23,797 nt of DNA from a virus, in the IMG/VR virus record IMGVR_UViG_3300028025_000195, positions 1 to 23,797 of that record; one strand, 5' to 3'. Numbering within the stretch: the first letter of the stretch is position 1; the number at the start of each line of letters is the position of its first letter. A program made the position numbers and the translations under genes. Below are positions 8,129 to 23,797 of this stretch, piece after piece. Below the pieces are notes generated by a model. The model searched no databases. It saw only the letters and a program-made list of their open reading frames with translations, and was not told where the DNA came from.

Positions 8129-8769
8129 CCTACTTAGAACTTGTTAACGATGTGCTAGTTCGCTTGCGTGAAAGCACAGTATCTACTGTTGGCGAAACAA
8201 CCTATTCTTCTCTGATTGGCAAGTTTGTCAATGATGCTAAGAGACAGATTGAAGACTCTTATAACTGGAATTGCCTTGCTCAAACAATCACAGTAACGAC
8301 TACTGCTGGTACAAGTTCCTATGCTTTGACAGGTGCGGGACAGAAGTTTCGTGTCAATGATGCTCTGAACACAACAAGTTTGATTGGTCTTCGCAATATT
8401 GAGTTTGTGGACATGAACCGCAAACTAAACCTTGGCGCACCTTCTCAATCTATTCCTTCAGAGTTCTGCTTTAGCGGTGTGGATGGTAGTGGAGACACCA
8501 AGGTAGACCTGTTTCCTGTTCCTTCTGGTGCTTTTACTCTGTTGTTTGACCTGACTATCCCACAGGCTGCTTTGTCTGCTGATGGCACATCTGTCAAGGT
8601 TTTGGACTACTTGGTGACTCAAAGCGCCTATGCTCGTGCTTTGATTGAGCGTGGTGAGGATGGTGGTACTGCTTCTAATGAGGCTTATGCCTTGTTCAGA
8701 GGAATGCTCTCTGATGCGATTGCATTGGAGTCCACTCGTTATCCTGAAGACAACTTTGTGGCGGTCTAA
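8125..8769 (+). CDS. Head-tail adaptor protein (T7 gp11 / SU10-adaptor-like)
   Basis: This 214-residue protein probably forms the adaptor ring below the portal. Its start, TYLELVNDVLVRLRE, and the segment LIGKFVNDAKRQIEDSYNWN (about residues 29-48) match the SU10-type adaptor or T7 gp11-like group, in which a helical bundle with an invariant DxYNW-like motif docks to the portal. The middle is a beta domain (TITVTTTAGTSSYALTGAG) and the end is a long helix (ALIERGEDGGTASNEAYALF) followed by a short arm. It precedes the nozzle-like gene with a 1-base TAATG overlap, the usual adaptor-nozzle order in podoviruses. Confidence 0.84.
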   Translation: MTYLELVNDVLVRLRESTVSTVGETTYSSLIGKFVNDAKRQIEDSYNWNCLAQTITVTTTAGTSSYALTGAGQKFRVNDALNTTSLIGLRNIEFVDMNRKLNLGAPSQSIPSEFCFSGVDGSGDTKVDLFPVPSGAFTLLFDLTIPQAALSADGTSVKVLDYLVTQSAYARALIERGEDGGTASNEAYALFRGMLSDAIALESTRYPEDNFVAV

Positions 8770-10313
8770 TGGCATCAGCACTTCAAAGTTATAGTCTCTC
8801 AGCACCAGGCTTTTATGGCCTGAATACTGAAGATTCCCCCCTTGATTTAGGGGCTGGCTTTGCTTTGGTTGCGACTAACTGCATCTTGGATCAGTATGGT
8901 CGTATTGGTGCTAGAAAAGGTTGGTCAAGGGTTAACTCTTCCTCTGGCAATCTAGGCGCTAACGATGTTGGTGTCATCCATGAATTAGTCCAGACTGACG
9001 GGACTCTTACAGTTCTGTTTGCTGGCAACAACAAGATATTTAAACTTGGCACTTCTAATGCGGTAACTGAGTTGACCTATGGTGGTGGCGGTACTGCTCC
9101 TACTATCACGGCATCTAACTGGCAATGTGCCTCTTTGAATGGCATTGCTTACTTCTTTCAAACAGGTCACGATCCATTGATTTATGACCCCGCAGTAAGT
9201 ACTTCTACGTACCGCAGAGTGTCAGAGAAGTCTGGTTATGTAGCTACAGTTCCTCAAGCCAACATCGCTATTTCAGCATTTGGTCGTCTGTGGGTGGCTA
9301 ATACATCTACAGATAAGGTGACTATCAGCTTCTCTGACCTGATTGCTGGTCATGTATGGTCTGGTGGCACTTCAGGCTCTTTAGATGTTTCTCGTGTATG
9401 GCCTAATGGTGCAGATGAAGTCATGGGATTGGCAGCACACAATGATTTCTTGTTTATCTTTGGTAAGAAGCAAATTCTTGTTTACTCTGGTGCTTCAACA
9501 CCTGCATCTCTCGTTCTGAGCGACACAGTAGGTTCTATTGGATGTATTGCTAGGGATACCATACAAAGTATTGGTACTGATGTTGTTTTCTTGTCAGACT
9601 CAGGTGTTCGTTCATTGATGAGGACTATCCAAGAGAAGTCTGCACCTTTGCGTGACCTATCTAAGAATGTTCGTTTCGATCTAGAATCATCCTTGGCAGG
9701 TGAAACACTAGCCAATATCAAGTCTGTTTACTCAGAGAAGAACGCTTTTTATCTGCTTGTTTTACCCGCTACTTTGCAAGTTTACTGCTTTGATACGAAG
9801 CAATCCTTGCAAGATGGTGCTTCCCGTGTAACCAAGTGGGATTCTATTTCTCCAACTTGTTTGAAATCACTAAGAAATGGTGATTTATACATTGGTAAGA
9901 ATGGATACATTGGTAAGTATGGAACTTATCTTGATGACACATTGAGTTATCGGTTTTCTTACTACACCAACAATGCTGACTTAGGAAACCCTAATCAGAT
10001 TTCCATCCTGAAGTCCATTACTGCCGTGGTGATTGGTGGTTCTAACCAGTTCCTCACAATCAAGTGGGCTTTTGACTACTCGGGCGCTTATCAGTCAGAG
10101 AACGTCTTTATTCCACCTCAAGGCTATTTTGAGTATGGAGTTGGTGAGTATGCAATTGCAGACTACGCAAGTGGCATACCAATTAAAGCATTGACAAGTA
10201 ATGCTTCAAGTGCAGGTAAAATTGTGCAAACTGGTTACGAAGCCACTATCAATGGCACTCAGTTGTCAATTCAGAAAATTGAACTTCAAGCCAAAGAAGG
10301 CAAGATAGGATAA
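8769..10313 (+). CDS. Tail nozzle-like protein
   Basis: This 514-residue protein follows the adaptor. It is beta-rich with several repeated blade-like strands (GTLTVLFAGNNKIFKL, DFLFIFGKKQILVYSG, NGDLYIGKNGYIGKYG), consistent with a beta-propeller as in podovirus nozzles. The N-terminus (GFYGLNTEDSPLDLGAGFAL, then NCILDQYGRIGARKGW) is a signature I recognise from environmental podoviruses, where the protein is usually called a tail or stabilisation protein. The role proposed here, forming the distal end of the short tail, is inferred from gene order and fold appearance. It is coupled to the adaptor gene by TAATG, and the first fibre gene starts 4 bases after its stop. Confidence 0.78.
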   Translation: MASALQSYSLSAPGFYGLNTEDSPLDLGAGFALVATNCILDQYGRIGARKGWSRVNSSSGNLGANDVGVIHELVQTDGTLTVLFAGNNKIFKLGTSNAVTELTYGGGGTAPTITASNWQCASLNGIAYFFQTGHDPLIYDPAVSTSTYRRVSEKSGYVATVPQANIAISAFGRLWVANTSTDKVTISFSDLIAGHVWSGGTSGSLDVSRVWPNGADEVMGLAAHNDFLFIFGKKQILVYSGASTPASLVLSDTVGSIGCIARDTIQSIGTDVVFLSDSGVRSLMRTIQEKSAPLRDLSKNVRFDLESSLAGETLANIKSVYSEKNAFYLLVLPATLQVYCFDTKQSLQDGASRVTKWDSISPTCLKSLRNGDLYIGKNGYIGKYGTYLDDTLSYRFSYYTNNADLGNPNQISILKSITAVVIGGSNQFLTIKWAFDYSGAYQSENVFIPPQGYFEYGVGEYAIADYASGIPIKALTSNASSAGKIVQTGYEATINGTQLSIQKIELQAKEGKIG

Positions 10314-21377: not shown

Positions 21378-21871
21378 TTGATCCGATAACGGCTCTAGCT
21401 GGCATACAGTCAGCTATTTCGATGGTCAAGAAGGCGGCTAATGTTGCCAATGACTTAGGCTCACTAGCGCCCATGATTGGCAAGCTATTTGACGCTAAGT
21501 CTGTAGCTACAAAAGCCATGCTTCAGGCTAAACAGTCTGGCAAAGGCTCAAACATGGGTACGGCTTTGCAGATTGAGATGGCTTTAGAACAGGCCAGAGC
21601 GTTTGAGGAAGAGTTAAAAATGCTCTTTATGCAGACAGGCAAGATTGATGTTTGGAACAAGATTAAGGCTCGTCAAGCAGAGATGGACTTGGCAGATGCC
21701 AAAGAGATAAGTGCTTTAAAGAGAGCAGAGAAAGAAGCCAAAGAGAAAGAGCAAGAACAACTAGAGATTGGCTTGGCAATAGGTGGAATCTGTTTTGTGT
21801 TGTTTTTAGTCTTTGTTGGCGTGAATGAGATGATGGATTTCTGTGCAACTACTCGTAGATGTGGCAGATGA
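21374..21871 (+). CDS. Coiled-coil protein with C-terminal membrane helix (MIDPITA type)
   Basis: This 165-residue protein starts MIDPITALAGIQSAISMVKK, an N-terminus I recognise from a widespread tailed-phage protein family with no assigned function. Residues 60-128 form a charged coiled coil (EMALEQARAFEEELKMLF, ISALKRAEKEAKEKEQEQ) and residues 132-150 one membrane helix (IGLAIGGICFVLFLVFVGV), followed by a short tail with Cys157 and Cys163. An in-frame GTG at 21359 would add five residues, but the ATG at 21374 gives an ATGA junction and the familiar N-terminus. It may be anchored in the inner membrane with the coiled coil in the cytoplasm. A lysis or ejection role is inference. Confidence 0.8.
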   Translation: MIDPITALAGIQSAISMVKKAANVANDLGSLAPMIGKLFDAKSVATKAMLQAKQSGKGSNMGTALQIEMALEQARAFEEELKMLFMQTGKIDVWNKIKARQAEMDLADAKEISALKRAEKEAKEKEQEQLEIGLAIGGICFVLFLVFVGVNEMMDFCATTRRCGR

Positions 21872-22023
21872 ATGAGTATCAAAAGACCTTTGACTTGTGC
21901 TTAAAAATCTTCGTTTACGGGGTGGTAGCGCTTTATTTCTTGGGGTTTCTGAAGTTCTTACCTGATGACTTGTCAGACAGAATTGTTAATCTTTTACTTG
22001 GAAAGGTTGGATTGGGCAAATGA
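21868..22023 (+). CDS. 51-residue small membrane protein
   Basis: The gene starts in an ATGA overlap with the preceding gene and ends in another with the next. The protein has a short polar start (MNEYQKTFDLC), a hydrophobic helix (LKIFVYGVVALYFLGFLKFL, residues 12-31), and a C-terminal amphipathic part (PDDLSDRIVNLLLGKVG). I do not recognise it. One membrane segment with an amphipathic tail is compatible with a small holin or membrane-active accessory protein, but this is only a structural impression. Confidence 0.66.
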   Translation: MNEYQKTFDLCLKIFVYGVVALYFLGFLKFLPDDLSDRIVNLLLGKVGLGK

Positions 22024-22187: not shown

Positions 22188-22226
22188 GATTGCTTGCTAT
22201 TTAATTTGACAAGAGTAAAATGCGAA

Positions 22227-22254
22227 ATGCCAAGTGGCTGTAACTACTTGGCAT
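22227..22254 (+). other. Perfect stem-loop before the HNH-AP2 gene
   Basis: ATGCCAAGT at 22227-22235 pairs perfectly with ACTTGGCAT at 22246-22254. G36-U45 and G37-C44 extend it to 11 pairs around a CTGTAA loop. No T run follows, so it is not a standard terminator. It lies 30 bases before the endonuclease ATG and could be a processing site, operator or translational control element. A TTGACA at 22206-22211 lies just upstream but has no good -10 partner. Confidence 0.7.
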
Positions 22255-22283
22255 CTCTAACCTAAATGATGAAAGGACATCAA

Positions 22284-22790
22284 ATGGCTGAAATTAGTTT
22301 ATCACGTGAGCGTTTGTGCGAGTTGCTAGAGGTGGATACTGAAAAAGGTATCTTTACGTGGCGAAACACAATGGGTGGCAAAGCGCAAAAAGGTCAGCAA
22401 GCTGGTTCAAAACAAAAGATTGGATACATTTTAATAAGGCTTGACCAAAAAGATTACTACGCACATAGATTGATGTGGCTGTATGTTTATGGTGCAACAC
22501 CACTATTACAGATAGACCATATCAATCGGGACAAAGAAGATAACAGACCTGTTAATTTGAGATTGGCAACACAAAAGCAAAATAGTGAAAATGTATTTAG
22601 GGCAAAACAGAACACTTCAGGGTTTCGTGGTGTTCGATTTGAAGCTAGGTTGAAGTCAAAACCTTGGTCTGCTTGCATAACAAACAATTACAAGCAGAAG
22701 CATTTGGGATATTACGCAACAATGGAAGAAGCGATTACTGCAAGACAAACTGCTGAAGATGCACTTTTTACACATCACATAAGACAATGA
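22284..22790 (+). CDS. HNH endonuclease with AP2 DNA-binding domain
   Basis: This 168-residue protein is a free-standing homing-type endonuclease. The N-terminus (LCELLEVDTEKGIFTWRNTM) is typical of the group. The HNH core is YYAHRLMWLYVYG (His61), LLQIDHINRDKEDNR (Asp78-His79) and PVNLRLATQKQNSEN (Asn91). The C-terminal AP2 domain (about residues 112-160) shows SGFRGVRFEARL, KPWSACITNN and HLGYYATMEEAITA and should bind DNA. In-frame ATGs at 22266 and 22269 exist, but AAAGGA 6 bases before 22284 favours MAEISLS. It ends in an ATGA overlap with the lipoprotein gene. It carries the only sizeable spacer in the 21175-23797 block, which suggests it arrived as a unit with its upstream sequence. 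Confidence 0.93.
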   Translation: MAEISLSRERLCELLEVDTEKGIFTWRNTMGGKAQKGQQAGSKQKIGYILIRLDQKDYYAHRLMWLYVYGATPLLQIDHINRDKEDNRPVNLRLATQKQNSENVFRAKQNTSGFRGVRFEARLKSKPWSACITNNYKQKHLGYYATMEEAITARQTAEDALFTHHIRQ

Positions 22791-23005
22791 AAAACACTAT
22801 TCTGGTTGCTATTGTTGGACTTTTTTTATCTGGATGCTTAGAAGACAGGTATCGGTACTTTTGCCAAAACCCAGATAACTTTCATGCTGAACAATGCCAG
22901 AAACCTAAATGTTTGTTTACCCAACAATGTCCTGAATACTTAGTAGCCCCTATTTTGGAAAAGAAAATCAATGACATCCAACCAGAAACCAAACCTAACA
23001 ACTGA
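22787..23005 (+). CDS. Cys-rich phage lipoprotein
   Basis: This 72-residue protein has a lipoprotein signal peptide: Lys2, a hydrophobic run, and lipobox Leu14-Ser-Gly-Cys17. The mature part carries RYRYFCQNPDNF and four more cysteines (26, 37, 42 and 48) in a QCQKPKC...QQC pattern, enough for two disulfides in the periplasm. Similar small lipoproteins (RYxCQxPxNWxxxxCxxPxC) are familiar from tailed phages near lysis genes, with no proven function. The next residue after Cys17 is Leu, not Asp, so outer-membrane sorting would be expected. It starts in an ATGA overlap and overlaps the holin-like gene by 35 bases. Confidence 0.82.
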   Translation: MKNTILVAIVGLFLSGCLEDRYRYFCQNPDNFHAEQCQKPKCLFTQQCPEYLVAPILEKKINDIQPETKPNN

Positions 23006-23510
23006 AGAATTTGAGGTTCGTGTATGGGGATTTGTGGTCATTGTCGTGACCTGTATCCTGTGCTTTATCGTCATTGCTTTGCTCTATTCTGTCACCTTTG
23101 TGACTCAGCCCATCAAAAGTATGGCTCCGATTGACCAAGCCTATACCAAGATGCTGAACGACATTGTTCTTTTGATTGTTGGCGGTATCGGTGGTGTGAT
23201 GACTAAAAGAGCCGCTGGAGCAGTTTCTAAGGCTTTTGGAGCGCCTCAACCTCCGATGCAACCAATGTGTCAACCAATGGGTTATCAAGGCTCTATGGGC
23301 GGTTTTAACCCTTCCTATGGGTCTTCCTACGCACCTCCGCAATCTGCGTATGGTTTGCCTAGTCAACCATTCGGTGCTATGCCTGTTTGGACTAATCCTG
23401 AGTTGGATGAATCTTGGACACCTGGCCCTCCACCGACTACCCCTCCTGACCACCTAGAAGACGACCATGAGCGTGAAGAGTTGGCTCAAGCAAGAAAAGA
23501 GGCTGAATAA
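22971..23510 (+). CDS. Holin-like membrane protein with long Pro/Gly/Gln tail
   Basis: This 179-residue protein has two likely membrane helices, at about residues 19-43 (FVVIVVTCILCFIVIALLYS) and 61-77 (MLNDIVLLIVGGIGGVM), with basic residues after the second (TKRAAGAVSK). The NDIVLLIVGGIGG segment resembles class II-type phage holins. Unlike them it has a long C-terminal region: Pro/Met/Gln/Tyr-rich from 90 to about 160, then a charged helix (LEDDHEREELAQARKEAE). Position before the spanins supports holin, the protein that forms lethal membrane holes. The start ATG is inside the lipoprotein gene. Another membrane protein is possible. Confidence 0.72.
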   Translation: MTSNQKPNLTTEEFEVRVWGFVVIVVTCILCFIVIALLYSVTFVTQPIKSMAPIDQAYTKMLNDIVLLIVGGIGGVMTKRAAGAVSKAFGAPQPPMQPMCQPMGYQGSMGGFNPSYGSSYAPPQSAYGLPSQPFGAMPVWTNPELDESWTPGPPPTTPPDHLEDDHEREELAQARKEAE

Positions 23511-23797
23511 TGTTACCTTTACCTCTCCCGTGGCTTATTGTGGGTGTTCTAGTGTCTTTATTTGGGTCTTACAGGGTAGGACACCACTATGGATGGCTAG
23601 AACGTGATGGAGACATGAAGATCGCTATTGCTAAAAAGAACGAAGAATCCCGTAAAACAGAACAGAAATTGACTGAAGAACTGAACCTAAATGCTACTAA
23701 ATTATTGGAGGCAAACAATGCTATCAATCAAAAGACTTCTGCCCTTAGTGCTGCCAATCGTGCTGGCAAGTTGCGCCTCTGCCCCTCAAGTAACGTA
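23510..23797 (+). CDS. Rz: Inner-membrane spanin subunit, Rz-like (cut by the right edge)
   Basis: Ninety-six codons are visible and the frame is still open at the window end. The protein starts with a membrane helix (LPWLIVGVLVSLFGSY, about residues 6-21), then a periplasmic coiled coil rich in Lys, Glu, Asn and Gln (KKNEESRKTEQKLTEELNLN, ATKLLEANNAINQKTSALSA), and the basic segment ANRAGKLRL that is typical of Rz proteins near the end of the coiled coil. Rz spans the periplasm and, with its outer-membrane partner, fuses the membranes at the final step of lysis. It starts in a TAATG overlap with the holin-like gene. A second spanin reading frame lies inside it. Confidence 0.85.
   Translation, partial: MLPLPLPWLIVGVLVSLFGSYRVGHHYGWLERDGDMKIAIAKKNEESRKTEQKLTEELNLNATKLLEANNAINQKTSALSAANRAGKLRLCPSSNV
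23707..23711 (+). promoter_or_regulatory. Internal ribosome binding site for embedded Rz1
   Basis: GGAGG lies inside the Rz gene, 6 bases before the ATG at 23718. It is in the right place to start Rz1 in the other frame. Confidence 0.8.
23718..23797 (+). CDS. Rz1: Outer-membrane spanin lipoprotein, Rz1-like, embedded in Rz (cut by the right edge)
   Basis: In the +1 frame relative to Rz, 26 codons are visible: a start MLSIKRLLPLV, a hydrophobic run PIVLAS, then lipobox Leu16-Ala-Ser-Cys19, and ASAPQVT. This is a complete lipoprotein signal peptide followed by the Pro-containing start typical of Rz1. It has a strong internal GGAGG ribosome site. Rz1 would be anchored in the outer membrane and bind Rz across the periplasm. 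The embedded arrangement is known from lambda-like Rz/Rz1 pairs. The gene runs past the window end, so its length is unknown. Confidence 0.85.
   Translation, partial: MLSIKRLLPLVLPIVLASCASAPQVT

Follow-up and report, generated by a model that had tools for sequence, protein, structure and literature searches.

Gene organization at the end of the record

The window analysed here is the whole stretch of 23 797 nucleotides of the IMG/VR virus record IMGVR_UViG_3300028025_000195. The record is a linear viral fragment ending at position 23797, and the 3' ends of two overlapping genes, Rz and Rz1, fall beyond it. The following features are assigned at its right end.

23510–23797, + strand: i-spanin (Rz) gene, of which 96 of about 165 codons precede the record end (reading frame open to the window end; closed at 165 aa in the relative L002; PHROG matches)
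23707–23711, + strand: GGAGG Shine-Dalgarno sequence of Rz1, with a 6-nt spacer to the ATG (sequence; relatives)
23718–23797, + strand: o-spanin (Rz1) gene in the +1 frame within Rz, likewise truncated by the record end after 26 of about 66 codons (sequence; closure at 66 aa in L002; weak PHROG matches; conservation)
23763–23774, + strand: lipobox codons LASC, Rz1 residues 16–19, L16-A17-S18-C19 (sequence; relatives)

As the original prediction stated, the GGAGG and the ATG at 23718 open a second frame within Rz, the lipobox LASC at residues 16–19 is complete, and both frames stay open to 23797. The second frame is +1 to the Rz frame of 23510, with an offset of 208 nt. The 26 visible residues of Rz1 are MLSIKRLLPLVLPIVLASCASAPQVT, and C19 is predicted to be the lipidated residue; the signal peptide and the lipobox were called by sequence pattern. 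Another in-frame ATG, at 23691 upstream, was considered as the start of Rz1 and rejected. No ribosome site precedes it, and in many relatives this ATG is absent or is separated from the Rz1 start by a stop.

The sequence was extended rightward using near-identical relatives. Rz closes at 165 aa and Rz1 closes at 66 aa, and the early stop in the 23718 frame that would have spoken against the prediction was not found. The Rz of L002 is identical to that of the window across the 96 visible residues. The complete Rz1 of L002 (66 aa) is MLSIKRLLPLVLPIVLASCASAPQVTYQPPQIPPLPPQIQKQPVNLTDRLTNLLMPKEQPSKPSQK, and its stop is located 89 nt ahead of the Rz stop, Rz1 being wholly within Rz. The distance between the two stops is about 86–92 nt in the complete relatives, and 116 nt in the one with a shortened Rz1. 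Mature Rz1 contains 11 Pro in 48 residues, and no Cys other than the lipidated one. This would leave Rz as the site of any stabilising homotypic disulfide. Among 66 distinct Rz sequences, C91 and C150 are invariant, and they could be the periplasmic Cys residues for such disulfides. The hydropathy of Rz peaks at the N-terminus, corresponding to a single N-terminal transmembrane (TM) segment. In the structure model of Rz (low confidence, pLDDT 58.5), a helix of residues 6–84 is followed by a coil and a helix of residues 124–162.

Upstream genes

The 179-aa protein encoded at 22971–23510 begins with a strong TM segment at its N-terminus, contains another hydrophobic stretch and ends in a proline-rich tail. 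It is located directly before Rz in 158/158 loci with room and matches phrog_25359, a family of unknown function. This protein is a holin candidate by position only. A small Cys-rich putative lipoprotein of 72 aa with the lipobox LSGC is encoded at 22787–23005, and is found upstream of Rz in 158 of the 160 loci. Its match to the Cor PHROG (E 0.042) covers only the signal peptide region.

The 174-aa ORF at 22190–22790, a putative HNH endonuclease, lies between two small ORFs that adjoin each other directly in L002. When L002, L003 and L004 are aligned to the window, the alignments are interrupted at 22190 and continue from 22819–22850. From the sequence, this ORF looks like an inserted free-standing homing endonuclease, which would have displaced the start of the lipoprotein gene at 22787. 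A further ORF of 54 aa with a single TM segment (L002:2001–2165, corresponding to about 21860–22021 of the window) is conserved in 157/160 loci; the family search (PHROG, Pfam and NCBIfam) gave no match for it, and it is a candidate holin or membrane protein. Far upstream, the ORF at 8769–10313 has its best match to phrog_5107, labelled amidase (E 6.9e-26), and also matches profiles for virion structural and head-closure proteins. Its annotation as a lysis gene may be erroneous.

Conservation among relatives

Relatives were found on 104 distinct contigs by scans of viral contigs. The inner frame with its Shine-Dalgarno sequence and lipobox is present in all of the first-scan loci with complete Rz (75/75). 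A broken inner frame was looked for in these loci and none was detected. Rz1 is 66–67 aa in the relatives, the one-residue difference depending on which of two adjacent ATGs is taken as the start in part of them, with one exception of 57 aa that has a shortened tail. The lipobox is LASC in 69 and LVSC in 6 of the 75 relatives, and its Cys is located at 19 or 20 in every case, depending on which of the two adjacent ATGs is chosen. The ribosome site is GGAGG in 48 relatives and GGAAG in 27. Over all loci (104 distinct viral contigs and the GenBank record MW202462, some loci being counted twice), Rz1 was detected in 159 of 160, and the sole locus lacking Rz1 is on a contig that breaks off at Rz codon 80.

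A search of bacterial genome contigs found no relative, and thus gives no prophage or host link. Terminase similarity gave distant matches only (<60% identity), which indicate no host.

Family identity and the neighbouring endolysin

According to the PHROG profiles, both proteins belong with the Rz-like spanins. Rz matches phrog_2466 (E 3.6e-7) and phrog_1327 (E 9.1e-7), and Rz1 shows weak matches to phrog_3198 (E 0.0016) and phrog_812 (E 0.0022). In the Pfam and NCBIfam searches, nothing was above the cut-off for Rz or Rz1. Both phrog_2466 and phrog_1327 are also matched by the Rz of lambda. A direct profile comparison (hhalign) with lambda Rz was not significant. Therefore, the kinship to lambda Rz rests on the shared PHROG profiles. 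A GH19 endolysin gene is located directly downstream of the spanin pair in 140/140 loci with room; here, it would lie beyond the window end. In L002, the endolysin start is located within the last Rz codons.

Other small TM and lipoprotein ORFs are present just upstream of Rz (22787–23510), and we considered that the two products are real membrane proteins with a role other than lysis, such as an outer-membrane lipoprotein that acts in superinfection exclusion or in the envelope. This is very unlikely, as the spanin profiles match both Rz and Rz1, the helix-linker-helix and proline-rich architecture resembles that of lambda, and the endolysin gene is directly downstream.

Two-frame constraint

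Diversity at the wobble positions of Rz was measured in those codons that encode the commonest residue, and is 0.069 in the overlap vs 0.331 outside. This is an approximately five-fold drop exactly over Rz1 (Mann-Whitney p 3.5e-15). Substitutions were counted between nearest-neighbour pairs, which share ancestry, and the counts are not fully independent. The proportion silent in Rz is 72% upstream of the overlap and 60% downstream of it. In the overlap, only 23% of the substitutions are silent in Rz, whereas the proportion silent in Rz1 is 67% (random placement would give about 31%). No new stop in the Rz1 frame is produced by the 402 overlap substitutions, vs 36 by the 582 substitutions in the same frame upstream. 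Outside Rz1, the +1 frame contains about 5.8 stops in the 69 codons upstream and about 3.3 stops in the 28 codons downstream. The synonymous variation across relatives thus behaves as two-frame coding predicts.

The constraint alternates along the overlap. The proline-rich region of Rz1 (diversity 0.073) is encoded over the variable Rz linker (0.434), and the more variable C-terminal tail of Rz1 (0.156) over the conserved second helix of Rz (0.051). As a chance test, the L002 Rz was recoded synonymously 40,000 times. A +1 ORF of at least 60 aa arises in 24% of the recodings, and one that reaches at least 55 aa and also has its lipobox in the right place arises in 0.9%. Because of this 0.9%, the embedded Rz1 is suggestive only when observed in a single sequence; with the conservation across relatives, the evidence is decisive. 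One alternative is that Rz is the sole gene and that the inner ORF and its lipobox arose by chance. At these frequencies one sequence would not exclude it, but it is exceedingly improbable and is ruled out by the two-frame substitution pattern. The start, ribosome site, lipobox and length are conserved in all 75 complete relatives, silent variation in Rz is suppressed only where Rz overlaps the inner frame, and the substitutions there create no stop in that frame and favour positions silent in Rz1.

Proposed function

The gene anatomy, the two-frame constraint, the family match and the endolysin neighbour in relatives are directly supported here, and they bear out the embedded Rz/Rz1 spanin pair originally predicted. 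We estimate a probability of about 0.95 that the right end of the window holds the left part of an operon for an embedded two-component spanin of the lambda Rz/Rz1 class, from a tailed phage of a Gram-negative host, the lysis function being taken from lambda.

In the case of such a pair, the products of Rz and Rz1 very likely break the host outer membrane at the end of infection. The outer frame would give Rz, anchored in the inner membrane by its N-terminus and continuing as a long helix that a flexible linker joins to a C-terminal helix. From its own ribosome site, the inner frame would give Rz1 as a small proline-rich lipoprotein, which would be sent to the outer membrane. The GH19-type endolysin encoded directly downstream would degrade the peptidoglycan first. 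After wall removal, Rz, held in the inner membrane, and lipidated Rz1, held in the outer one, would meet in the periplasm. The collapse of the Rz-Rz1 complexes spanning the periplasm would disrupt the outer membrane, probably by fusion to the inner membrane. For translation, lipidation, complex formation and membrane fusion, the model is the lambda system.

Comparison with known systems

The same arrangement is found in MW202462.1, an uncultured tailed phage from Manatee Spring (GenBank). It has the nested Rz/Rz1, the upstream TM and lipoprotein genes and the downstream GH19-like gene, whereas the identity is 51% for Rz and 73% for Rz1. Both spanin genes lack annotation in this record, and o-spanin CDSs were missing from the annotation in 196 of 528 two-component systems (PMC6139136). 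These results agree with the earlier remark that annotation often misses the inner gene, and indicate that both genes of such spanin pairs can escape annotation in deposited phage genomes.

As in lambda, Rz1 is fully nested in the +1 frame of Rz, Rz consists of an N-terminal anchor, helix, linker and helix, and Rz1 is proline-rich. Embedded systems were found in 182 of 677 phages (PMC6139136). Two periplasmic Cys residues are present in both Rz proteins, C91 and C150 here and C99 and C152 in lambda (PMC6139136). In lambda, either Rz C152 or Rz1 C29 is sufficient (PMC6139136), whereas the mature Rz1 here lacks any Cys beyond the lipidated one. Unlike lambda, the pair shows no significant direct sequence similarity to lambda Rz, Rz1 has PPxxPPLP in contrast to the penta-proline stretch, and the spanin genes precede the endolysin (the lambda order is S, R, Rz). 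Rz1 here ends at about 0.82 of the Rz length, whereas the usual range is 0.9–1 (PMC6139136).

In lambda Rz, CC1 (27–87) and CC2 (121–150) are separated by a linker, and the sensitive parts of each protein overlap silent parts of its partner (PMC5295617). The helix, coil and helix of the low-confidence Rz model match this layout. The conserved parts of one protein likewise lie over variable parts of the other here, and the two-frame pattern agrees with the lambda mutagenesis. The more than 100 viral contigs are a clean natural data set for two-frame coding, in which two proteins share DNA site by site. It is rather unlikely that the embedded Rz1 of these uncultured phages was acquired independently of lambda; the nested +1 arrangement and the alternating constraint would then be convergent. 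The lineage is not closely related to lambda Rz, and the type of pair is already well known from lambda and is an expected finding.
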